Shown here one piece after another: positions 783 to 37,936 of a DNA stretch of 64,000 nt; position 1 is the first letter of the stretch, and the number at the start of each line of letters is the position of its first letter. Both the position numbers and the translations under genes were made by a program. Origin of the DNA: Pseudomonadota bacterium (lineage in GTDB: Bacteria > Pseudomonadota > Alphaproteobacteria > Rhizobiales > Hyphomicrobiaceae); NCBI GenBank assembly GCA_018242295.1, contig JAFECE010000002.1, forward strand, positions 303,646 to 367,645. The letters run 5' to 3'. The notes under the pieces are model-generated. The model saw nothing but the letters and a program-made list of their open reading frames with translations, had not been told where the DNA came from and made no database searches.

Positions 783-1472
783 TTAGTCGCGGCCATCCCG
801 GCGCGATCGCCCGTAACGGGCAAGCCCGCGCACCGGCAGCGCGCTGGCGATGCAAACGAGGCCTTCGCGGCGATCCGGCATGCAGTCAACGCGCTTGGCT
901 GCGGCCGTGCGCCAATGGGCAAATTCGGGCCCAAAACGATCCGCGACCTTGCGGCGCCAGGCTATGATCGCGGCATGCCGCGCGTCATGCTCGCGGATTT
1001 CGTAGGGAACACTGCTGTCGGGAGCGCTGGCACGGACCTCGACACGAGACAGCCCGCCTTCGAAATTGCCCGCTGGCGGAGAAGCGGTGGCATCGCCAGG
1101 CCCTGGCTCTTGTCCATTCCCAGGTGGCGGACGATAGGCATCGGAAGGTGGACCGTCGGCCGCGTCCTCGTCATCATCCGCATCGGTTCCGGAAGGCGCG
1201 CGTGCCTCGTCCCCGTTATCCCTGACCTCACTCGGCCCATCGGAGGCCGGTCGCGTGGCGTCGCCGCCGCGGTAGACCGGAGCCGGTGGCTCGTTTTGCG
1301 GGGCTGTTTGGTTGCTGCTGGGATTGCTCTCTGACCCGTATGGGCCATATTCGAATTTCTGGCCCGTCGCGCCAGTGTACGAGCTGCTGGGATCCGCTCG
1401 CAAAGGGCTTGCGAGTACTGCGGACAGCATAGCAGCGACGGCAAAAGCAATCTTTGCGGGCAGGTGAGCCAT
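783..1472 (-). CDS. Secreted proline/acid-rich hypothetical protein
   Basis: About 229 residues from the ATG at 1472, which has a GGAG ribosome site about 8 bases upstream; an in-frame start 15 bases earlier lacks one. An N-terminal signal peptide (about residues 1-26, hydrophobic AFAVAAMLSAVLA, then A-D) is followed by a low-complexity Pro/Asp/Gly/Glu-rich middle, near residues 30-140. The conserved-looking C-terminal part (about 155-225) has two cysteines and tryptophans around AIIAWRRKVADRFG and FAHWRTA. The protein is probably periplasmic or envelope-associated. I do not recognise the family or a function. Confidence 0.7.
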   Translation of the reverse strand: MAHLPAKIAFAVAAMLSAVLASPLRADPSSSYTGATGQKFEYGPYGSESNPSSNQTAPQNEPPAPVYRGGDATRPASDGPSEVRDNGDEARAPSGTDADDDEDAADGPPSDAYRPPPGNGQEPGPGDATASPPAGNFEGGLSRVEVRASAPDSSVPYEIREHDARHAAIIAWRRKVADRFGPEFAHWRTAAAKRVDCMPDRREGLVCIASALPVRGLARYGRSRRDGRD

Positions 1473-1654
1473 GCAATATCTCCGCATCGGGAATCACCGG
1501 CGAAACGAATGAGCCAGCCTCGGCGGAAACTAGACAATAAAACGCCTGGGCTTCGGCAAGTGCGCGCGCTAGATCTCTTCGCCAATGGCTTGAAGGCGAA
1601 CCTCAAGCCGGTGTGTTAAGAACTTCAAATCTGCAATAAACCTGCCCAAAGATA

Positions 1655-2920
1655 ATGACCAAATTAGCGACGACGAAACCTCCTCAGCTTGCTGTCGCCT
1701 ATGACGACATTAAGCGTGCCGCCGATGCCATCCGCGGCGCCGTAGTCGCAACACGATTTGAGCAAAGCCGCACGCTTGGCGCGCTGCTGAATGCCGAAAT
1801 CTGGCTCAAGTTCGAAAACTTGCAGTTCACTGCGGCGTACAAGGAGCGCGGCGCGCTGAACAAGCTCCTGACGCTACCGCCCGAGCAGCGCCTGAACGGG
1901 GTGATCGCAATGTCGGCCGGCAATCACGCGCAAGGCGTCGCCTACCACGCCCATCGCCTTGGCATTCCTGCGACGATCGTCATGCCCGCCTGGACGCCGA
2001 CCATCAAAGTCGAAAATACCCGTAGCCACGGAGCGAACGTCATCCTTGAAGGGCAAAGCCTGGAGGAAGCTTACGGCTTCGCCGTCGGCTACGGCGCCGA
2101 ACATGGGCTGACCTTCGTCCATCCCTATAACGATCCCGCGATTATCGCCGGGCAGGGAACGGTTGCGATCGAAATGCTCGAGACGGCGCCCGACCTCGAC
2201 GTGCTGATCGTTCCGATCGGCGGTGGCGGCTTGATCTCGGGGATGGCGGTCGCCGCAAAGGCGATCAATCCGAAGATCAAAGTGATCGGCGTCGAAGCCC
2301 AGCTTTATCCCTCGATGCTCAATGCGGTGAAAAAGACATCTCTTCCAGTTGGCGGAGATACGCTCGCGGAAGGCATCGCCGTCACCGCGCCGGGCAGCTT
2401 CACGCAGCAGATCATCGAAGAACTCGTCGATGATATCCTGCTCGTTTCGGAAGCCGACCTCGAACGCGCCGTCTCATTGCTGATTACGATCGAGAAGACG
2501 GTCGTCGAAGGCGCCGGCGCGGCCGGTCTCGCAGCGCTGATCGGCGGAGCCAACAGGCTTTATAAGGGCAAGAAGATCGGGCTTGTGCTCTGCGGAGGCA
2601 ACATCGACACCCGGCTGCTCGCCAGCGTATTGACGCGCGAACTCGCGCGCGATGGGCGTCTGTCGCGGCTCGCCATCGATATTCCCGATCGTCCCGGCCA
2701 GCTGGCGAGAGTTTCTGGCATCATCGGTAAGGCCGGCGCCAACGTCGTCGAGGTTTATCATCAGCGCGTTTTCACCGATGTGCCCGCGAAGGGCACCGAG
2801 CTTAATCTCGTCATCGAAACGCGCGACCGAAGGCATCTGGAGCAAGTCGTCTCCGAACTCAAGGCCAACGGCTATGTCGTGCTTGTCAAAAGCTCAGGGG
2901 CTGGTGCCGGTGCGCCTTGA
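1655..2920 (+). CDS. ilvA: Threonine ammonia-lyase (threonine deaminase) with C-terminal ACT domain
   Basis: PLP enzyme that converts threonine to 2-oxobutyrate and ammonia, the first committed step to isoleucine. It is a fold-type II enzyme with Lys63 in AYKERGA as the PLP Schiff-base lysine, SAGNHAQG at 87-94 and the phosphate-binding GGGGLISG at 189-196. A single ACT domain follows at about 337-415 (DIPDRPGQLA onward). At 421 residues with one ACT domain it matches the shorter class common in alphaproteobacteria rather than the 514-residue E. coli IlvA. A citramalate synthase at 25.8 kb offers a second 2-oxobutyrate route, so this enzyme may be partly catabolic. Confidence 0.93.
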   Translation: MTKLATTKPPQLAVAYDDIKRAADAIRGAVVATRFEQSRTLGALLNAEIWLKFENLQFTAAYKERGALNKLLTLPPEQRLNGVIAMSAGNHAQGVAYHAHRLGIPATIVMPAWTPTIKVENTRSHGANVILEGQSLEEAYGFAVGYGAEHGLTFVHPYNDPAIIAGQGTVAIEMLETAPDLDVLIVPIGGGGLISGMAVAAKAINPKIKVIGVEAQLYPSMLNAVKKTSLPVGGDTLAEGIAVTAPGSFTQQIIEELVDDILLVSEADLERAVSLLITIEKTVVEGAGAAGLAALIGGANRLYKGKKIGLVLCGGNIDTRLLASVLTRELARDGRLSRLAIDIPDRPGQLARVSGIIGKAGANVVEVYHQRVFTDVPAKGTELNLVIETRDRRHLEQVVSELKANGYVVLVKSSGAGAGAP

Positions 2921-2948
2921 CGAGGAATCGCGCGGAACCGAATGGCGC

Positions 2949-2983
2949 AAAAAATGGGCCCCGCGCTAATTGGCGAGGGGCCC
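2949..2983 (-). terminator. Rho-independent terminator for the small leftward gene
   Basis: Inverted repeat GGGCCCC (2956-2962) and GGGGCCC (2977-2983), extended by GC pairs with one bulge. Read on the minus strand it is followed by a T6 run (2950-2955), the classical arrangement. It lies between two converging genes and may also slow the rightward ilvA transcript. Confidence 0.7.
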
Positions 2984-3045
2984 AGGTGGATCGTTAGGAT
3001 ACAAAAAATAACAGGATCAAGATTGGGAAGTGCAAAAAACAAGTG

Positions 3046-3231
3046 CTAGTGAGACGTGGTCGTGTTCGGGATCGTTGCGTGGCGGTTCTGATCAAGAGAA
3101 CCCGCGGCAAGCGTGCCGATGAGAAGCGCTCCCGTCGCGAGGAAGCACACCATCATGCTTGCTAATGCCAGACGGTCAGCTGTCGAATTCCGATCGCTCG
3201 CTGCCTTAAGGTCCATCGGTCGTGCCTGCAT
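3046..3231 (-). CDS. Small single-pass membrane protein (hypothetical)
   Basis: 61 residues, or 56 from the second ATG at 3216. A charged N-terminus (about 1-22) is followed by one hydrophobic helix near 23-45 (LASMMVCFLATGALLIGTLAAG) and a short polar tail. It sits alone between converging and diverging neighbours and has its own T-run terminator downstream, which supports it being transcribed. Neither start has a strong ribosome site. No family is recognised. Confidence 0.5.
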   Translation of the reverse strand: MQARPMDLKAASDRNSTADRLALASMMVCFLATGALLIGTLAAGSLDQNRHATIPNTTTSH

Positions 3232-3443
3232 TCGCTGTACTAATGAAGTAAGGTTCTTGTAACCGAACTTTGCTTAGCGGTCGATTTTGAACTCCCGGAA
3301 TGCCTAACTCGCAGTCGAGCAATTTAACGAATTCTTCATCTGTGTTAACGGCGCCGCTTCCCATGCGTCGCCGCCACGATGGTGCCGCGCCTCGGCGTTA
3401 GGAGCGGCGAATAAGAAAAAGAAACGGGCGGGACTCCAAAAAG

Positions 3444-5771
3444 GTGCGGTCGAGATACCTGATCATTTTCGCGTGTCTGGCCGCGATTCCAATTGGATTC
3501 GCGCTCCCAAGCGCGCGCGTCATTGCGCAGACGACCGCTAATCCGGGAAGCAACGCGTCCGCGCCGCTTCCATCGCGCCCCGACGAGCCGCGCGCGGCGA
3601 AGGCCTATACGGTCCTCGAAACCTATTGCGCCAGTTGTCATCAGACGGGAAAGCTTGAACGGCCTCTCGCGTCCGGGGACCTGGCAAACATCTTGGGCGT
3701 CGATGAGCTGGCGCGCGATCCCGTTCTGGTGAAACCAGGCCTTCCCGACGCGTCACGCCTCTATGATGTATTTGAAACGCGTCACGCGCCGCTCGACGTC
3801 TTTACCGGACCCGACGCCAAGCCCGAGCCGCAGCCCGATGATATTCAGGCCATCCGCCGCTGGCTCAAGGATTTGCCTCCCGCTGTACAGAGCTGCCCGT
3901 CGCGCCAGCCCGTGCGTCCGGCCGAGATCGACAAATTGATGCGCGAGGCGCAGCACCTCGAGCGCGACCAGGGCAAGGACGTGCGCTTCATCTCGCTGGT
4001 TCATCTCTACAACTCCTGTGCGACGCCAGGCGAAATGACCGACTACCGAAAAGCGCTCGACAAATTAATGAACAGCCTCTCCTGGGCTGCAGAGCCGGTA
4101 AGGCTGACGCCGCTCGACGAGGCCGGCACGCTTCTGTCGTTTCGTCTCGCCGATTTCGGCTGGGATGGCGCGCGCTGGAAGCTGATTGAAAAGGCCTATC
4201 CGCACGCGCTTATCCACGCCATCGCGCCCGATGTCGTAAAGACTGCGGGCAGCAACGTTGTCGTCGTCAACGGCGATTGGCTTGCCGCAACAGCCGGAGA
4301 CACGCCGCTCTATTACGCGCTGCTCGGACTTCCCGCCAAGCTCTCCGAGCTTGCGAAGATGAATGGAACCGATCTCGATGCGAACATTCGAGCCGGCTCC
4401 GTACGCCGCCTTGCGGTTCGCGAAAGCGCCATTACGCGCGGTAACCGTTTGATCGAAAGACATCCCGGGAAGCACTCCGGACTCTGGCTCGCCTACGACT
4501 TCGCAACGAGCAACGGCGAACAAAATGTCTTCGAGCATCCGCAAGGACCGAAATCGGCGACGACGGCGAAGTCGCCGTTCCGGCCGGATCAGATCCGCGC
4601 GCTCTTCGCGCTTCCGAACGGGTTTTATGCGTTCGCGCTATTCGATGCCGCCGGGAACCGCATCGACCGCTCGTTGCCCGGCATCGAGAAGCCATATGCC
4701 GGTATCGAAGCCAACGCCGTCGAGCCCGCGACGAAAGCGGGCATCAATTGCTTCGCCTGTCATACCGAAGGCTTGGTCCAGGCGAAGGATGATTTCCGCG
4801 CTGCCGGGCCGCTCGATATTTCCGCAGGCCCCATGACGCCTGACCGCCGCGCCGTGCTGCCGCTCTTCGGCACCGATAGCGAGAACGCGCTGCTGATGCT
4901 CGGCGGTTGGGACCGTTATCGCGCGGCGGCTAAAACTGCAGGGATCGATCTCGACATGCGCGTGCATGGCGACGAAATCGTCTCGGGGTTGGCGCGACGC
5001 TATCGCGAAGGCGCCGACTTCGAGATTGCGCTGGGCGAGACGGGCCTTGAGCGCCCGGAATTCCTGAAGGAGCTGGCAGATGCGAAAGGTGCCGCCGCAC
5101 CGCTGTCGCGCCGCCTCTTGCACGGAGTCCTATCGCGCCAGGAGCTCGAGCATCTCTTTTCGCTTTTGAAGGGAACGGACACGCCGAGCCAAACGACCGC
5201 GTCGGCAGGCTTTCTGCGCGAGGTCAAATCCGCGATCGGACTGACGATGTGGATCGACAAGCCGCGTCCAGTGCCGGGCGATCTCGTGACGATCAAGGCC
5301 GAGGCCGATAACGCCTGCTATCTGACCGTGATCAGCGTCGATTCAGCGGGCATCGCAACGGTTCTCTTTCCGAGCGATTTTCAACCCGACAACCTGATCC
5401 AACCAGGCGAGGCCGTCAGCATTCCCCCGGCTGATGCGCCGTTTCAGTTGCGTTACAAAGCGGAGGGCAGCGAGACGATCCTCGGCCGCTGCTCGACGCG
5501 CGCAGCACCGCCCGTCGGTATCGAGCACGATTTCGAACGCCAGCGTTTCACCGTTCTCGGCAATTGGGAGAATTTCCTCCGGGACACGCTCGTCACCGAT
5601 TGGGAAATGCGAACGAGCCCCGAAAAGGCCGAACGTGCCCGCATCGCGCGAACGGGCGCCATCCGCCGTCAGCAGGACCGGGGCGAACGCATCCCCGCGC
5701 CGCGTCCGGATGTGGCCAGCGAGACATCTCTCCGCGATGGGCGTGCGATTCTCGTCCTCGGCCGGAGTTAG
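3444..5771 (+). CDS. Secreted diheme cytochrome c-like protein with DUF4384 domain
   Basis: 775 residues from a GTG start. A Sec signal peptide covers about residues 1-29. There are two c-type heme sites, CASCH at 62-66 in a cytochrome-c-like N-terminal segment and CFACH near 436. The region from about 598 to 690 (TMWIDKPRPVPGD, then NACYLTVISVDSAG and VLFPSD) resembles DUF4384, a beta-rich domain often fused to kinases, caspases or surface proteins. The middle section is unassigned. It is probably a periplasmic or surface electron-transfer or sensor protein. It is transcribed alone, upstream of the decarboxylase gene. Confidence 0.78.
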   Translation: MRSRYLIIFACLAAIPIGFALPSARVIAQTTANPGSNASAPLPSRPDEPRAAKAYTVLETYCASCHQTGKLERPLASGDLANILGVDELARDPVLVKPGLPDASRLYDVFETRHAPLDVFTGPDAKPEPQPDDIQAIRRWLKDLPPAVQSCPSRQPVRPAEIDKLMREAQHLERDQGKDVRFISLVHLYNSCATPGEMTDYRKALDKLMNSLSWAAEPVRLTPLDEAGTLLSFRLADFGWDGARWKLIEKAYPHALIHAIAPDVVKTAGSNVVVVNGDWLAATAGDTPLYYALLGLPAKLSELAKMNGTDLDANIRAGSVRRLAVRESAITRGNRLIERHPGKHSGLWLAYDFATSNGEQNVFEHPQGPKSATTAKSPFRPDQIRALFALPNGFYAFALFDAAGNRIDRSLPGIEKPYAGIEANAVEPATKAGINCFACHTEGLVQAKDDFRAAGPLDISAGPMTPDRRAVLPLFGTDSENALLMLGGWDRYRAAAKTAGIDLDMRVHGDEIVSGLARRYREGADFEIALGETGLERPEFLKELADAKGAAAPLSRRLLHGVLSRQELEHLFSLLKGTDTPSQTTASAGFLREVKSAIGLTMWIDKPRPVPGDLVTIKAEADNACYLTVISVDSAGIATVLFPSDFQPDNLIQPGEAVSIPPADAPFQLRYKAEGSETILGRCSTRAAPPVGIEHDFERQRFTVLGNWENFLRDTLVTDWEMRTSPEKAERARIARTGAIRRQQDRGERIPAPRPDVASETSLRDGRAILVLGRS

Positions 5772-27394: not shown

Positions 27395-27754
27395 GCGCCG
27401 CTGACGCTTTTATCCCCAGCTGTGGAAAAAAGTGGAGCCGGCCCGGATGTGCGAGCCGACCTGGCTTGGCGCACTAGCTCACCACGCTTTTTGCACAGCG
27501 AAACCGGACTCAGCGAACGCCGATCGCCTAAGCGATTATCGTCGCTCGGATTTATTCAAATCCGCCGCTCGAAATGCTGCGTTGCATCGTTCATCCGTAT
27601 AGTGATCGAAAAGCAGCGATAACTAAAAATCGCCACATTCAGTGTACGAACAACTTGCCCGCGCATGGCTCCGCCGCTAGCACCGAGTTGTGGATAAGCT
27701 GTTGGTATCAGCAGCGGGAAAAAACGGGGAGCTTATCGGGGAGCGGGTATTGTG
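27395..27754. other. 360-base gap with DnaA-box-like sites
   Basis: No convincing gene. It contains TTATCCCCA (27410-27418), TGTGGAAAA (27421-27429) and a perfect inverted DnaA box TGTGGATAA (27689-27697). AT content is somewhat higher than in the flanking genes. It must also hold the promoter of the following outer-membrane protein gene. Confidence 0.5.
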
Positions 27755-28612
27755 ATGCGTAAAAGCGTTGCGTTGATCGCGTTTGTTTTACTTCAGTCGA
27801 CCGGAGCATTTGCCGATGGCAGCGGGGGCAGCCTGAAGGATTCGCCCGCTCCGATCGTCGCTGCATATGACGGCTGGTCCGGCTTTTCCGTTGGCGCTGG
27901 CGTGGGCGCCGCGAGCATCGATCAGAATGCCATTGCGTCTGCAAAGCGAACGGACATTTTTTGCTTTTGGTGGTGCTCTTATCCCAAGGATCACTACGTT
28001 TCGGGCGCGATGAACGATGATTCCTGGAACGTTTTCGGCACGGTGCAGGTGGGTTACGACCGGCTCATTAGCGACCGTTTCCTGATCGGCGCCTTTGCTG
28101 ACTACGACTTTTATCCAAACGGCGATGAGAGTGCCTCGGTGAGTTCTAAGCATAAGTCGCTCACCGGTGACCTCGACCGCTCGGGAGCATGGACCGTCGG
28201 CGGCAGGCTTGGCTACTTGGTAACGCCTCGGGTCCTAGTCTACGGATTGGGCGGCTTCTCGCGCCTGAACCAGAAGGGCGAAGTAACGGCCGACTTCAAC
28301 TACTATCATTTGCCGACGAGCGTGACGCTGAAAGCGGGCGATGTCGATGGCTGGACGGTCGGCGGCGGTATCGAGACCAAGCTCGACAGGATCGACAAGA
28401 GACTGTCTCTCAAGCTCGAGTATCGGTACTCGCAATTCGACGGCGAAAGCGGCAGCGGCTTTGACAAGGCCGACTCATACAAGTGGTGGGTGTTGCACTG
28501 CGCCACGGAAAAAGCCCGCTTCAACATCGACGATGCGACCGTGCAGTCGGTCCGCGCTGTGCTCGTCTGGAAATTACAGGCAGACGCAACGCCGATCGAA
28601 CCGCTCAAGTAG
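27755..28612 (+). CDS. Outer-membrane beta-barrel protein (Omp25/Omp31-like)
   Basis: 285 residues from ATG 27755 (a GTG at 27752 is adjacent). A Sec signal peptide ends near residue 20 (TGAFADG). The alternating hydrophobic/aromatic pattern includes WSGFSVGAGVGAASI, QVGYDRLISDRFLIGAFADY, GGRLGYLVTPRVLVYGLGGFS and LKLEYRYSQFDG. That matches the eight-stranded porin-like OmpA-type barrel family of alphaproteobacteria. A loop holds the pair CFWWC near residue 69, which is unusual. A strong terminator follows. Confidence 0.85.
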   Translation: MRKSVALIAFVLLQSTGAFADGSGGSLKDSPAPIVAAYDGWSGFSVGAGVGAASIDQNAIASAKRTDIFCFWWCSYPKDHYVSGAMNDDSWNVFGTVQVGYDRLISDRFLIGAFADYDFYPNGDESASVSSKHKSLTGDLDRSGAWTVGGRLGYLVTPRVLVYGLGGFSRLNQKGEVTADFNYYHLPTSVTLKAGDVDGWTVGGGIETKLDRIDKRLSLKLEYRYSQFDGESGSGFDKADSYKWWVLHCATEKARFNIDDATVQSVRAVLVWKLQADATPIEPLK

Positions 28613-28698: not shown

Positions 28699-28995
28699 TC
28701 ACCCGCCCGCAATCGCTCCGACGATAAGAAACGGCTTCGATCCAGCCGTCACTTCGTCCGGCAGTGGCGCGTCCATCGGCTCGTGCGAGAGATCGCGCTG
28801 ACACGCAAAAAATCTCAAGAACGGCCGGCGCCGCTGCGTGGCATGATCGCGAATGGTTCCGCGCAAGACCGGATATCGCCTCTCGAGCGCATCGAGCAGT
28901 GACTGCTGCGTCGCTTTCCCATCCACGTCGAGCAGAATTTCGCCGTTGATATTCGCGTGCATCCTGAGATGCGACGGCAGTACGACGCGGATCAT
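28699..28995 (-). CDS. MoaD/ThiS-like ubiquitin-fold protein ending in Gly-Gly
   Basis: 98 residues from ATG 28995; the ATG overlaps the stop of the upstream BNR-repeat gene (ATGA), so the pair is coupled. The beta-grasp layout shows [13 protein letters not shown] at the start, [19 protein letters not shown] as the helix, and a C-terminus [11 protein letters not shown] with a terminal Gly-Gly, as needed for adenylation and thiocarboxylation in sulfur carriers. It lacks neighbours such as MoaE, ThiG or an E1-like enzyme. It may be a sulfur carrier or a modifier for its partner; the role is unproved. Confidence 0.78.
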
Positions 28996-30107
28996 GTGAG
29001 CGTTTGGACCTCCACCGAGAGCACGGGTGGCAAATCGTGAACAATGGCGCTCCAGGTATCGCCCGCATCGGCGGAAGCATACACTTGCCCGCCCGTGGTG
29101 CCGAAATAAACGCCGCACGCGTCGAGCGTATCTACGGCCATCGCGTCCCTAAGCACATTGACGTAGCAGTTCGATTGCGGCAGGCCGTTTGTTAGCGGCT
29201 CCCAGTCCTGGCCACCGGAGCGGCTACGCCAAACTTGCAGCTTGCCCTCGATCGGAAAGTGCTCAGAGTCGCTCTTGATGGGAACGACATAAATCGTTTC
29301 TGGCTCGTGCGCATGGACATCGATCGCGAACCCGAAATCCGTCGGCAGGTTGCCGCTGACCTCGTGCCAGGAATTGCCGGCATCGTCGCTGCGCATCACG
29401 TCCCAATGCTTTTGCATGAACAGCACATTAGGCCGAGAAGGATGCATCGCGAGGCGGTGAACGCAGTGGCCGACTTCAGCATGCGGGTCCGGTATGTGCT
29501 CCGACCTGAGCCCCTTGTTGATCGGCTGCCAAGTTTCGCCGCCGTCATTCGTTCTGAATGCGCCAGCCGCGGAAATCGCGATGAACATCCGCTTCGGATC
29601 GACAGGATCGAGCAGAATGGTGTGCAGGCACATGCCGCCCGCTCCGGGCATCCAATGCGCTCCCGATCCATGACCGCGTAGGCCGGAAAGTTCGGCCCAG
29701 GATTTTCCTCCATCATTCGAACGGAACAAGGCGGCGTCCTCGACCCCGGCAAAGACCGTATCCGGGTCGGTGACCGACGGCTCGAGATGCCAGACGCGCT
29801 TGAACTCCCAAGGATGCGGCGTGCCATCGTACCATTGGTGTGTGCCCGGAACGCCATCGTAGGCGAACTTGTTGTCGACGGGCTCCCAGGTCTTTCCGCC
29901 ATCGTCGGATCGCTGGATCTGCTGCCCGAACCAACTGCTCGACTGCGACGCATAAATCCGGTTTGGATCGGCCCGAGATCCTTTGACATGATAAATTTCC
30001 CAACCGGCAAAGTGGGGACCGCTGACGTCCCAAGATTTGCGCTTGCCGTCTGCCGTGAGAATGAAGGCACCTTTCCGGGTTCCAACCAATACACGTACGC
30101 CTGTCAT
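28992..30107 (-). CDS. BNR/sialidase-like beta-propeller protein
   Basis: 371 residues with repeated Asp-box motifs: [10 protein letters not shown] (about 66-75), [41 protein letters not shown] and SADAGDTW, one per propeller blade. It has no signal peptide, so it should be cytoplasmic. Catalytic sialidase residues are not evident; the fold is more likely a binding scaffold similar to VPS10/photosystem-assembly propellers. It has a fixed partner, the ubiquitin-like protein directly downstream. Confidence 0.85.
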
Positions 30108-30381: not shown

Positions 30382-31299
30382 ATGTTTGTTCGCCAAATGA
30401 GCTACCTGGTGGCGCTTGCCCGCGAAAAGCATTTCTCGCGTGCCGCTGAACGCTGTCACGTGACCCAATCGACACTGTCATCCGGTCTCAAAGCGCTGGA
30501 ACGCGAACTCGATATGCGCCTTGTCATTCGCGGGCCCAGATTTTTGGGATTGACGCCCGAAGGCGAACGCGTCGTCGCCTGGGCATCGCAGATCATATCT
30601 GACTATGAGAATCTCAAACAGGAGGTGGAGGGCATCCGCGAAGGATTGAATGGTACATTGCGGTTCGGAGTCATTCCTGCAGCCATGCCGGCCGTGGCCA
30701 AGCTTACGTCTCCGTTTTGTGCCAAGCATCCGCACGTGACGGTCGATGTGCGATCGATGTCGTCCATCGACATTCAGAATGCGCTCGACAAATTTGAGAT
30801 CGATGCTGGTCTTACCTACCTCGACAACGAGCCCCTCGCGAATATCCGTAAGAAACCCCTCTATCGCGAGAGATATCTTTTCGTGACGCATGCAGATGGC
30901 CCGCTTGCGCAGACGGATGCCATTACGTGGCGCGATGCGACCGCCGAGAATTTATGCTTGTTGCATGAGAGCATGCAAAACCGCCGGGTCTTGAACAATC
31001 TCGTGGGATCACTCGGTCTGAAGTTGGCGCCGACCGTCACATCCGACTCTTTCTTGGCAGTCTGCTCGCACGTCTGCAGTGGCGAATGGTCGAGCATCAT
31101 TCCGCACACTTTTTCTTTTATTTTCCGAGGATGCAAGGAATTGGCTTTGGTCAATCTCATCGATCCCGTTCATAGCCAGGCGATCGGTCTCGTCGCCTCG
31201 GCCCGCGACCCCCTGTCTCCGCTCGCGCATGCGCTGATGCATTGCGCCGGACGCCTCGACATTGATCAGTTCGGGATCGAGACTGTCGACAAGGTTTGA
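30382..31299 (+). CDS. LysR-family transcriptional regulator
   Basis: 305 residues. The N-terminal winged helix-turn-helix (about 4-62) contains HFSRAAERCHVTQSTLSSGL and ELDMRLVIRG. The effector-binding domain (about 88-295) begins LNGTLRFGVIPA. It lies directly upstream of, and in the same direction as, the formate dehydrogenase gene, with 255 bases between. It may control that gene in response to formate or a C1 signal, which is inference from position. A TGATCGA/TCGATCA hairpin (31297-31315) spans its stop. Confidence 0.9.
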   Translation: MFVRQMSYLVALAREKHFSRAAERCHVTQSTLSSGLKALERELDMRLVIRGPRFLGLTPEGERVVAWASQIISDYENLKQEVEGIREGLNGTLRFGVIPAAMPAVAKLTSPFCAKHPHVTVDVRSMSSIDIQNALDKFEIDAGLTYLDNEPLANIRKKPLYRERYLFVTHADGPLAQTDAITWRDATAENLCLLHESMQNRRVLNNLVGSLGLKLAPTVTSDSFLAVCSHVCSGEWSSIIPHTFSFIFRGCKELALVNLIDPVHSQAIGLVASARDPLSPLAHALMHCAGRLDIDQFGIETVDKV

Positions 31300-31554: not shown

Positions 31555-32754
31555 ATGGCTAAGATCGTATGTGTTCTCTACGACGACCCGGTAGGGGGCT
31601 ATCCCAAATCGTATGCTCGGGACGATATCCCGGTGATCACCAAATATCCCGACGGCCAAACCACGCCGACGCCGTCGGCAATCGATTTCAAGCCGGGTGA
31701 ATTGCTGGGCAGCGTGTCCGGCGAACTTGGCCTTCGCAAGTTCCTGGAGAAGGCGGGGCACACTCTCGTCGTCACGTCCGACAAGGATGGCAAGAATTCC
31801 AAGCTCGATCAAGAGCTGCACGACGCTGAAATCGTCATCTCGCAGCCCTTCTGGCCAGCCTACATGACGGCCGAGCGCATTGCAAAAGCTCCGAAGCTGA
31901 AGATGATCGTGACCGCCGGGATCGGCTCCGATCACACGGATCTGCAAGCCGCTATGGATCGCGGCATCACCGTGGCGGAGGTCACGTACTGCAACAGTAA
32001 CAGTGTCGCCGAGCACGTCGTAATGCAGATCCTCGCGCTCGTGCGGAATTATATTCCTTCGTACAATTGGGTGATCAAGGGCGGCTGGAATATCGCTGAT
32101 TGTGTCACCCGCTCGTACGATCTCGAAGGCATGCATATCGGCACGGTCGCGGCTGGACGCATTGGCCTGCGCGTCCTCCGCCTGCTCAAGCCCTACGACG
32201 TCCATCTCCATTACATGGATCGCCACAAGCTGCCGGATGCGGTCGAGAAGGAACTCAACCTCACGCATCACGACAGTGTCGAAAGCCTGACGAAAGTTTG
32301 CGACGTCGTAACGTTGAATTGCCCGCTTCATCCCGAAACCGAGCACATGATCAACGACAACACGCTGAAAAACTTCAAGCGCGGCGCTTATCTCGTGAAT
32401 ACCGCGCGTGGCAAACTGTGCGATCGCGATGCAATCGTTCGTGCGCTCGAAAGTGGCCAGCTCGCCGGCTATGCGGGCGACGTCTGGTTTCCGCAGCCGG
32501 CGCCGCAGGATCATCCATGGCGTACGATGCCGTATCACGGTATGACCCCGCACATCTCGGGCACGTCGCTTTCGGCCCAGGCGCGCTACGCGGCCGGAAC
32601 GCGAGAAATCCTTGAGTGCTACTTCGCAGGCAAGCCAATTCGGAACGAATATCTGATCGTTCAGGGTGGCAAGCTTGCTGGTGTCGGCGCCCACTCCTAC
32701 AGCGCTGGTAATGCTACGGGCGGCTCGGAAGAAGCGGCCAAGTTCAAACGCTAA
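31555..32754 (+). CDS. fdh: NAD-dependent formate dehydrogenase
   Basis: 399 residues, nearly the same length as, and closely similar along its whole length to, the Pseudomonas sp. 101 enzyme (VLYDDPVGGYPKSYARDD at the start, GGSEEAAKFKR at the end). It oxidises formate to CO2 with NAD+, the final energy-yielding step of methylotrophy in the cytoplasm. D-2-hydroxyacid-dehydrogenase fold; GTVAAGRIGLRVLR is the NAD-binding loop, NTARGKLCDR holds the catalytic Arg, and QPAPQDHPWR and GMTPHISGT hold the Gln and His. No metal or cofactor genes are needed. GGAGAAAG precedes the ATG. Confidence 0.96.
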   Translation: MAKIVCVLYDDPVGGYPKSYARDDIPVITKYPDGQTTPTPSAIDFKPGELLGSVSGELGLRKFLEKAGHTLVVTSDKDGKNSKLDQELHDAEIVISQPFWPAYMTAERIAKAPKLKMIVTAGIGSDHTDLQAAMDRGITVAEVTYCNSNSVAEHVVMQILALVRNYIPSYNWVIKGGWNIADCVTRSYDLEGMHIGTVAAGRIGLRVLRLLKPYDVHLHYMDRHKLPDAVEKELNLTHHDSVESLTKVCDVVTLNCPLHPETEHMINDNTLKNFKRGAYLVNTARGKLCDRDAIVRALESGQLAGYAGDVWFPQPAPQDHPWRTMPYHGMTPHISGTSLSAQARYAAGTREILECYFAGKPIRNEYLIVQGGKLAGVGAHSYSAGNATGGSEEAAKFKR

Positions 32755-33400: not shown

Positions 33401-35224
33401 TTAGCTCGGCAGTCCCCAGACCGTCAGCGAACCTCCGAGAGCTGTGTAATTGCTGAGGGAGGCATACCCGCCAACGGCTCCAAGGCCGTCGGTTGGGTTG
33501 GTCAATCCGGCGGCGAGACCTATGCCGGCCCATCCACCAACGCCCGAGTAGACACCGATGTACTGCTTACCCTTGTGCTCGTAGGTAAAGACGTTGCCTA
33601 TGATGCCGGACGGCGTTTTGTATTTGTAGAGCTCCTTGCCGTCTTTCTGGGCGACGCACTTGAAATAACCTTCAAGTGTGCCGAAGCAGGCTATGCCGCC
33701 GGCCGTCGTCAATGCGCCTGACCACACCGAAAATTCTTCAGGCTTCGACCAGACGATTTTTCCCTTGGACGCGTCCCAGGCGATGAAGTTGCCCATGTTG
33801 GTACCCCCTGGCGCAGGGAACATGGAGAGCGTGGCGCCCACAAAGGGCTGACCGGCCGTATACGAAACCTTGAAGGGTTCGTAGTCCATGCAGACGTGGT
33901 TCGTCGGAACGTAGAAAAGTCCCGTCATCGGCGAATACGACGCCGGCTGCTGGTCCTTCGAACCGAGAGCCGCGGGGCAAACGTTCTTGGTGTTGAAGTC
34001 TTGGCCATTCTTGAACGTCGATTTGCTTGCGACGCGCACTGGCCGGCCATAATCCGCACTATTCGGATCGAGGTCGATGCTGGTCGCCCAATTGACGGCC
34101 GGATCGAACTTGTCGGCGACGAGCGGCAGGCCGCTCTTGCGATCGAGCGTATAGCCGAAGCCGTTGCGATCGAAGTGGACGAGCACATTGTGCTTTTCGC
34201 CCTTGATGTCCAAGTTATCTGCGAGAATCATCTCGTTGATGCCGTCATAATCCCATTCATCGAACGGCGTCATTTGATAGGCCCATGCCGCCATGCCCGT
34301 ATCAGGGTCGCGAGCAAAAATCGTCATGGTCCATTTCTGGTCGATTGGCTTGCCGCCAGGGCCGGCGCGTTGCACCGGGTTCCACGTTCCCGGATTTGCC
34401 GTGCCGTAGTAGATCAGGTTCAGCGCAGGGTCGTAGGCGTACCAGCCCCATGTCGAGCCGCCGCCAATTTTCCACTGGTCGCCGTTCCATGTTTTGAGCG
34501 AACTATCCGGCCCGACGGGCTTGCCGAGCGACATGGTCTTTTCCGGGTCGATCAGCATTTCCTTATCGGGCCCGGTCGAGAAAGCGCGCCAAGCCAATTT
34601 GCCGTCGGAAATATTGTAGGCGGTCAGGCGCCCGTGAATTCCGAACTCGGCGCCGGAAATGCCGACAATGACCTTGTCCTTGACGATAAGGGGAGCGCTC
34701 GTCCCGGTCTCGCCAACCTTGGGATCACCGTTTTTGACTTTCCAGATTTCCTTGCCGGTCTTGGCATCGAGAGCGACCAGGAAGGTATCGGCCTGATAAA
34801 GGAAGATCTTGCCATCCGCATACTGAACACCGCGGTTCACGGTATCGCAACACATCACCGGAACGACGGAGGGGTCCTGCTTAGGCGTGTACTTCCACAT
34901 AATCTTCTGATTGTCGTCGAGGTTCAGTGCATAAACGATATTGGGGAAGGGCGTATGCACGTACATCGTGTCGCCGACGACAAGTGGTGAACCCTCGTGA
35001 CCTCTGAGAACGCCAGTTGAGAAACTCCACTGCGTTCTTAAAGTCCCGACATTTTCGGTATTGATTTGGTCGAGCTTCGAATAGCGCTGGTTGCTATAGT
35101 CGCCTTGCTGCATGGCCCAGTTTTTCGGGTTCTTCGTGGCCTCGACGACACTGTCGTTCGCCAAGGCCGGACCTACTGCGGCAACGAGCAGCCCGATCCC
35201 GCAGGTTATTGCGCTTAGTCGCAT
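33401..35224 (-). CDS. xoxF: Lanthanide-dependent PQQ methanol dehydrogenase XoxF
   Basis: 607 residues from ATG 35224, which has AAGGAG 7 bases upstream; a longer in-frame start is unsupported. Periplasmic quinoprotein oxidising methanol; signal peptide about 1-23. Eight-bladed propeller with the vicinal disulfide pair Cys125-Cys126 (VMCCDT), metal/PQQ ligands Glu193 (GAEFG) and Asn277, catalytic Asp325, and Asp327 in the DYD motif (EWDYDGIN). The second Asp, Ala in calcium-type MxaF, marks lanthanide dependence. No mxa, xoxG or xoxJ genes of the usual kind are adjacent; a diheme cytochrome diverges from it. Confidence 0.96.
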
Positions 35225-35462
35225 GACAATTCTCCTTGCGCGCGCCGCCTGCCGATGCGGGGTGACGTACGCGCCGAAGAGAGACAATCCCAATGTCAAT
35301 TGCGGCTGGCCGTACCAATCAAATATCATGGAACTATTGCCGGGGACGTTGGTTTTGCTACGTGTTATCTATGTTTCTTTATGCACTCCACGAAACTCAT
35401 CTGATGTGCATCCGGGCCGATGGCTGCAAGTCCGCTTAATTCGTCATTGTGGGCGAGAGAAA

Positions 35463-37085: not shown

Positions 37086-37409
37086 TTAAGCCACCTTCAG
37101 CGGCGCGGTGGCGACGGTTGTCACGCCGTGATCGTCCGTCCACGCAAATTCAAAAACGCCAGGACCCGGAACGCGCATGTGAAACGCGACATAAGGATTC
37201 GCAGAAATTCCTGGCCCGAACGTCGCGCGGAATACTTGCTGGCCTTCAAATTTCACGACCAAGGCATTGATGATGTCGCGCGGGATAGGCTTGCCGTTCT
37301 TGTCGTGACGATTCCCGGTTTCCATGACATGCGTGATGAGCGTCTTGATCTCAATCACCTCACCGGGATTGGCAATGTCCGGTAGCTTGATGCGCGGATT
37401 CGCGGTCAT
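37086..37409 (-). CDS. soxZ: Thiosulfate-oxidation carrier component SoxZ
   Basis: 107 residues. Periplasmic immunoglobulin-like partner of SoxY. Recognisable by NPGEVIEIKTLITHVMETG, DIINALVVKFEGQQVF and FEFAWTDDHGVTTVA. SoxYZ holds sulfur intermediates on the SoxY cysteine. It follows soxY with a 12-base gap. No signal peptide, as usual; it should be co-exported with SoxY through Tat. Confidence 0.94.
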   Translation of the reverse strand: MTANPRIKLPDIANPGEVIEIKTLITHVMETGNRHDKNGKPIPRDIINALVVKFEGQQVFRATFGPGISANPYVAFHMRVPGPGVFEFAWTDDHGVTTVATAPLKVA

Positions 37410-37421
37410 GACGTTCGTTCC

Positions 37422-37910
37422 TCAGATCCCGCAACCGCCGATGGTGACTTTGACGAGCGTCGTCGAAATCAGCATTTCGCCGTTTGACTGCTCCGCCAGA
37501 ACGACGACGTTCTGCGTCTTGGCCAGCCGCATCCGCGTCTGCACGCGCGCGACGGCGTTCGCGGGCGTAAGATAGAATGTGGCGACGTGCGCGTGGGGAT
37601 TTTCCGTTGAGAGAATATGGATCGCCCGCACGTAATCTGCGTCCGTCATCGGGCTTTCGACGGCGATGGTCACTGGCACGAAATTGCCGTTCTCAGCCGT
37701 CTCGGGCAAATCAACTGTGACCTTGCCTTCGATGGGTTTGACCGAACCGGTGATCCGCGCGAAATCATCCTGGAATTTTTGACTGGGTGCGAGCGCATTC
37801 GTTCCTGCATCCTCCGCGCGAGCGAGATAGGGAAGAAAAGCAGCCGCTGCGACACTCGCAGCAACGAATGTCCTGCGGGTCAAAATGGCAATATCGATAG
37901 AGTCTGGCAC
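37422..37910 (-). CDS. soxY: Thiosulfate-oxidation carrier protein SoxY
   Basis: 162 residues. Twin-arginine signal (LTRRTFVAASVAAAAFLP, about 10-29), then the SoxY domain. The C-terminus is TIGGCGI with Cys160, the residue that covalently carries sulfur in this family; the common GGCGG tail is shortened to GGCGI here. Paired with soxZ. soxB, soxXA and soxCD are not in the window, so the module may deliver sulfur to another system such as sHdr, which is inference. Confidence 0.93.
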   Translation of the reverse strand: MPDSIDIAILTRRTFVAASVAAAAFLPYLARAEDAGTNALAPSQKFQDDFARITGSVKPIEGKVTVDLPETAENGNFVPVTIAVESPMTDADYVRAIHILSTENPHAHVATFYLTPANAVARVQTRMRLAKTQNVVVLAEQSNGEMLISTTLVKVTIGGCGI

Positions 37911-37936
37911 GCGCCAAGCCTCGAAGCGGAAGGTTG

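Follow-up and report, generated by a model that had tools for sequence, protein, structure and literature searches.

The 64,000-nucleotide stretch studied here (referred to below as the window) belongs to contig JAFECE010000002.1 of a Pseudomonadota bacterium from the family Hyphomicrobiaceae (GenBank assembly GCA_018242295.1), and its minus strand carries two overlapping genes, one for a beta-propeller protein and one for a small ubiquitin-like protein that ends in Gly-Gly (GG). Both open reading frames (ORFs) stand at the positions and on the strand given for them in the initial annotation, with products of 371 and 98 amino acids (aa), and the overlap it reported is seen at the coding-strand junction of the two genes, CTCACATGATCCGC, where 4 bp (ATGA) are shared. 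The features of the pair are as follows.

28992..30107, minus strand: propeller gene, encoding a 371-aa Asp-box (BNR) beta-propeller, a relative of the seven-bladed PDB 3b7f
28699..28995, minus strand: small gene, encoding a 98-aa ubiquitin-like (SAMP1/CysO-type beta-grasp) protein with the C terminus ...IVGAIAGG
28702..28707, minus strand: codons of the terminal Gly-Gly, conserved in 80 of 80 close-relative loci
28992..28995, minus strand: ATGA shared by the stop codon of the propeller gene and the start codon of the small gene; 64 of 77 loci overlap by the same 4 bp
29148..30074, minus strand: span with the codons of K12, W106, H162, H217, Q232, H234, and R320, which are identical across the 55 propellers aligned and assigned to a putative top-face pocket

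A survey of gene neighborhoods across genomes, of the kind that the initial annotation had proposed, shows that the pair is widespread and that the two genes, far from being rarely found together, nearly always co-occur. The close-relative loci, the best 80 of 363 stretches encoding a small-gene relative, come from Hyphomicrobium and at least 10 other phylum-level groups, mainly as metagenome bins; the propeller lies upstream of the small gene in all 77 loci with room for it (tblastn), the remaining three small genes starting within 67 bp of a contig end. The 13 loci of these 77 without the 4-bp overlap have gaps of −104 to 571 bp, an ORF lies between the two genes in L066 (VOC-like) and L038 (no Pfam match), and the propeller is in more than one piece in four loci (L046, L052, L075, and L093) and cut by a contig end in two (L039 and L080). 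The small protein was found at 69 to 100% identity in 15 of 41 genomes searched, the window's own included, all of them from its genus; within that genus the small gene occurs in 15 of 22 genomes, and the identical 15 carry this propeller type. A draw of 398 genomes from the phylum yielded the small gene solely in the window's own genome. In the Acidobacteriota this propeller type (>440 bits) is present in 34 of 247 genomes, and all 34 have the small gene, within 100 bp in 33 of them and, in G542, on the same strand at a distance of 1.8 kb; small-gene matches without this propeller were found in G699 (at a contig edge), G482 (with stops), and G535 (a fragment), and five more genomes gave weak matches (E values of 1e-5 to 3e-4).

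Substitution rates point the same way. Compared with five same-genus loci, the small gene has a dN of 0.03 to 0.17 and a dS of 0.18 to 1.03, and the propeller gene a dN of 0.02 to 0.10 and a dS of 0.36 to 2.30 (a sixth, more distant locus yielded no usable dS for the small gene). Since dN is well under dS for both genes, the pair is not a product of chance, and the rates indicate purifying selection on both genes within the genus.

The association extends to a wider propeller family, whose more distant members were found on plasmids (16 records, 31 to 42% identity), in 86 of 247 Acidobacteriota genomes in all, in 92 of 396 Actinobacteriota genomes, and in five further genomes of the window's order. 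For the other (non-A) propeller types, we fetched 40 of 56 places in Acidobacteriota, 38 of 66 in Actinobacteriota, and 15 of the 16 plasmid records. A ubiquitin-like match lies on the same strand within 1.2 kb in 111 of 125 propeller-led loci: 11 of 15 on plasmids, 37 of 40 in Acidobacteriota, all 5 in the window's order, and, in Actinobacteriota, 27 of 27 of the window's type and 31 of 38 of the others. A control scan of 967 kb recovered 81 known ubiquitin-like genes and one other match, beside a second propeller in L072; together with the 111 partnered loci, this rules out chance adjacency. The partner's position varies by clade, downstream in some and upstream in others, with position labels changing 11 times on a 142-row quick tree, against 58 in shuffles, on which 50 of 139 inner forks have support below 80 and long branches meet. 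In Pseudomonadota, a profile of the order-swapped partner matched in 11 of 398 genomes, and 9 of these 11 matches adjoin a propeller (8 upstream and 1 downstream). The proposal that the two genes form a unit is therefore strongly supported at the sequence level by the near-perfect co-occurrence of the genes, their overlap, their arrangement in either order, and their natural fusion in seven loci.

Carriage of the pair by plasmids or phages was considered and rejected, with no plasmid match to the small protein (1e-3) and no phage match to the propeller (1e-10). L072 (positions 1269-4922) holds tandem propeller and ubiquitin-like pairs of two different types. On a P. phymatum plasmid (L174), propeller and partner are each in pieces. 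In L175 (positions 1-1483) the ubiquitin-like domain continues in frame beyond SGG, which may be an assembly effect; we take the continuation to resemble a BipA/TypA-type translational GTPase.

The small protein is predicted with high confidence to adopt the beta-grasp fold of MoaD/ThiS/CysO-type carriers, with the archaeal modifier SAMP1 as its best structural match. The predicted structure thus bears out its earlier description as MoaD/ThiS-like, though the window protein reaches no Pfam model at an E value of 0.1. Of its relatives, 8 of 32 match Pfam ThiS (PF02597) at E values of ≤0.1, the best being 0.0044, and 7 of 8 order-swapped partners match at ≤0.01. Homologs lacking the terminal GG did not emerge among the close relatives: all 15 proteins of the genus end in GG, and of the 80 close relatives, all of which retain it, 74 end there. 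GG is the end point in 155 of 184 non-fused members, across very different small-protein sequences.

The propeller has repeated S/T-x-D-x-G-x-x-W boxes, five of which match in the window protein, in agreement with its first reading as an Asp-box propeller. Its fold is predicted with moderate confidence, and a close solved relative is available in PDB 3b7f, described as seven-bladed in PMC2716378; GH74 xyloglucanases are the next-ranking folds. No signal peptide was seen by eye. K12, W106, H162, H217, Q232, H234, and R320 are identical in all 55 aligned propellers, and the Lys/His/Gln/Arg members of this set probably sit in a pocket on the top face, a placement that follows a predicted strand list rather than coordinates and in which R320 adjoins a low-confidence segment. 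The only Asp or Glu residues invariant in all 55 are D132 and D188 of the Asp boxes; outside the boxes, D280 (50 of 55) and D326 (47 of 55) are near-invariant in the alignment. A sulfur relay via a propeller cysteine was rejected, as no Cys is invariant in the 55.

A tblastn search of the window with six E1 proteins as queries detected no E1 gene, consistent with the original remark that none is adjacent. The window's own genome encodes one full-length E1 (contig C9) and two separate ThiS-family genes (contigs C5 and C2), and an E1 gene is present in 20 of 21 other genomes. Of 225 loci, many of which extend no more than about 1.5 kb to each side, a single one has an adjacent E1: an E1-rhodanese gene (L063, positions 268-1425) divergent from the propeller and about 70 bp from it. 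A CysO-like domain precedes E1 in the same open frame in L104, L106, and L111.

The likeliest single reading of these data makes the propeller an enzyme and the small protein its dedicated partner, a sulfur carrier of the same kind as SAMP1, CysO, and MoaD that is activated by an E1. We give this reading slightly less than an even chance; conjugation and a non-covalent subunit role are each about half as likely. A general E1 of the MoeB/ThiF type, sometimes rhodanese-fused and encoded elsewhere, would adenylate the terminal glycine, which a sulfur donor would convert to a thiocarboxylate. The flexible GG tail may then dock at the propeller's top-face mouth, where the invariant Lys/His/His/Gln/His/Arg set would hold the small molecule that receives the sulfur. 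MoaD-MoaE and ThiS-ThiG likewise combine a small carrier bearing a terminal GG with an acceptor enzyme.

Several observations weigh against the sulfur-carrier reading. Among the 125 propeller-led loci, 14 lack a ubiquitin-like gene within 1.2 kb, including a clade of six rows (five from large Actinobacteriota genomes and one from a Streptomyces plasmid), three Rhodobacterales plasmids, and L176, where a contig end limited the search; six aligned propellers without such a neighbor carry the same invariant residues. Seven of the 125 loci are natural fusions in which a single open frame encodes the partner, a retained GG, 5 to about 25 residues (about five in L262), and then the propeller. In addition, 6 of the 80 close relatives continue for 1 to 9 residues past GG, and 22 of 104 non-fused partners of propeller-led loci extend 1 to 366 residues beyond it (one further partner, L222, is cut by a contig end and falls outside this count). 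Because GG is internal in the fusions and extended partners, the tail would not be free there without a protease, and the partner in L165 ends in PALA, without GG. Z scores to 1v8c and SAMP1 cannot separate a carrier from a modifier, soxYZ is found near the pair in one genus only, and sulfur genes beyond the neighbor families listed (the 25 commonest of 100 and the 25 commonest of 60) may be missed either way.

Ubiquitin-like conjugation, in which a SAMP1-like modifier would be joined by an isopeptide bond to lysines, either on the propeller or on clients presented by it, and the propeller would be the target or an E3-like adaptor, seems unlikely. It would fit the top structural rank of SAMP1, the retention of GG even at fusion junctions, as in precursor ubiquitins, and the invariance of K12 in 55 of 55 propellers; however, K12 does not vary in the six aligned propellers that lack a ubiquitin-like neighbor either and so reads as a pocket residue, the commonest neighbors are small-molecule proteins, and no E2, E3, or JAB appears among the listed neighbor families, no dedicated JAB search having been made. 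On the mechanism, for which the initial annotation had suggested the propeller as acceptor, scaffold, or target, the evidence leans toward a sulfur carrier that supplies an enzyme pocket over a conjugation target. Equally improbable is a structural or regulatory role for the small protein as a non-covalent subunit of the propeller, with a GG tail that docks and is never activated: the seven single-chain fusions, above all L262 with so short a linker, the tails beyond GG in 22 of 104 non-fused partners, and the GG-less partner in L165 speak for such a role, but a GG kept in divergent sequences and terminal in 155 of 184 is more than docking usually needs.

The ordinary annotation, a sialidase or glycosyl hydrolase beside an unrelated MoaD gene, has very little left to recommend it. 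Public databases label the propeller “exo-alpha-sialidase” or “sialidase family protein” and the small gene “MoaD/ThiS family protein,” and the GH74 folds that follow 3b7f and the near-invariant D280 and D326 would suit a hydrolase. Sialidases of family GH33 are marked by an R-I-P motif and an Arg/Asp/Glu/Tyr catalytic set, and GH74 xyloglucanases by paired catalytic Asp residues between two tandem propellers; no R-[ILV]-P motif is present in the window propeller, and its fully invariant acidic residues are those of the Asp boxes. The chance part of this explanation is refuted by the partner in 111 of 125 loci and by the control scan, whose one extra match itself lies beside a propeller.

To our knowledge, bacterial ubiquitin-like proteins and sulfur carriers occur with a short list of partner folds. 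In place of the partners in CysO-CysM (M. tuberculosis) and CysO-BexX (A. orientalis), the gene here encodes a propeller, and the listed neighbor families include none for cysteine or thiosugars; a propeller also replaces MoaE or ThiG, with the genome's two ThiS-family genes standing apart on other contigs. Unlike SAMP1 of Haloferax volcanii, the small protein is bacterial and gene-linked to a propeller. PDB 3b7f is Reut_B4987 of Ralstonia eutropha, named a putative glycosyl hydrolase in the part of its source available to us, where a ubiquitin-like gene goes unmentioned; the C. metallidurans locus L164 is among those we fetched. MoaD/ThiS-like genes and their gene partners were surveyed by Iyer et al. 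in 2006 (PMC1779556), in whose main text the terms propeller, sialidase, BNR, and WD40 are absent. No description of the pair was found in open-licence PMC papers, a negative weakened by “ThiS” matching the word “this,” and within those limits the suggestion of an undescribed system holds. We judge it an even question whether the pair represents an undescribed sulfur-transfer or ubiquitin-like class of many phyla, in which a GG-tailed beta-grasp protein, sometimes made as a fused precursor, would be charged by a housekeeping E1 and serve a propeller enzyme whose invariant pocket is rich in His. If so, the propeller partner would be a new branch, kept in at least three phyla despite changes of gene order and fusions, and would give a role to 3b7f, listed in 2009 as a structure of unknown function. 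On this reading, a single system may lie behind the labels “exo-alpha-sialidase” and “MoaD/ThiS family protein,” and it is also found in the culturable genera Cupriavidus, Burkholderia, Amycolatopsis, and Hyphomicrobium.

A fixed third gene was sought and rejected: none is found in the 80 loci, the largest extra cluster (32 of 80) seems to consist of antisense reading frames of the two genes, and the next clusters reach 15 of 80. The 122 neighbor ORFs surely include some false frames. YCII relatives are present in 22 of 80 loci, where 0.71 genes would be expected from the density in 23 genomes (91 in 116.3 Mb); these genomes were partly picked for nearby YCII and searched by a different method, and related strains are counted separately. 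A YCII gene lies between propeller and partner in L183 (Pfam), as does a relative of it in L177. The invariant residues and these frequent YCII neighbors suggest small-molecule chemistry. The genes of a P. aeruginosa plasmid locus (L163) run sigma factor, MFS, VOC, YciI, MoaD/ThiS, and “exo-alpha-sialidase”; this locus probably corresponds to PA1355-PA1356. PA1356 is named once as promoting adhesion and biofilm in the accessible part of PMC11538994. An ECF-sigma-like cluster has members in 11 of 80 loci, and two ECF-like proteins, of which one (L213) does not belong to the 80, have Sigma70 domains and DUF6596; ECF42 sigma factors are tied to YCII neighbors in the review PMC8999054.

In four Hyphomicrobium loci (L020, L021, L022, and L026), soxYZ immediately precedes the propeller gene in the same orientation, and an FCSD-type ORF is divergent from both (Pfam on some ORFs, others by similarity); soxYZ of the window (37089-37931, minus strand) is 7 kb from the pair. 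About 270 bp upstream of the pair is a divergent LysR-like ORF (30382-31299) and downstream a convergent outer-membrane-like ORF (27752-28612), both named by eye, and ORFs at 31555-32754 and 33401-35329 resemble, also by eye, an NAD-dependent formate dehydrogenase and a PQQ-type dehydrogenase. L075, with an interrupted propeller frame, is labeled Bordetella parapertussis, and its genome, G457, was drawn in the phylum of an Acidobacteriaceae genome.
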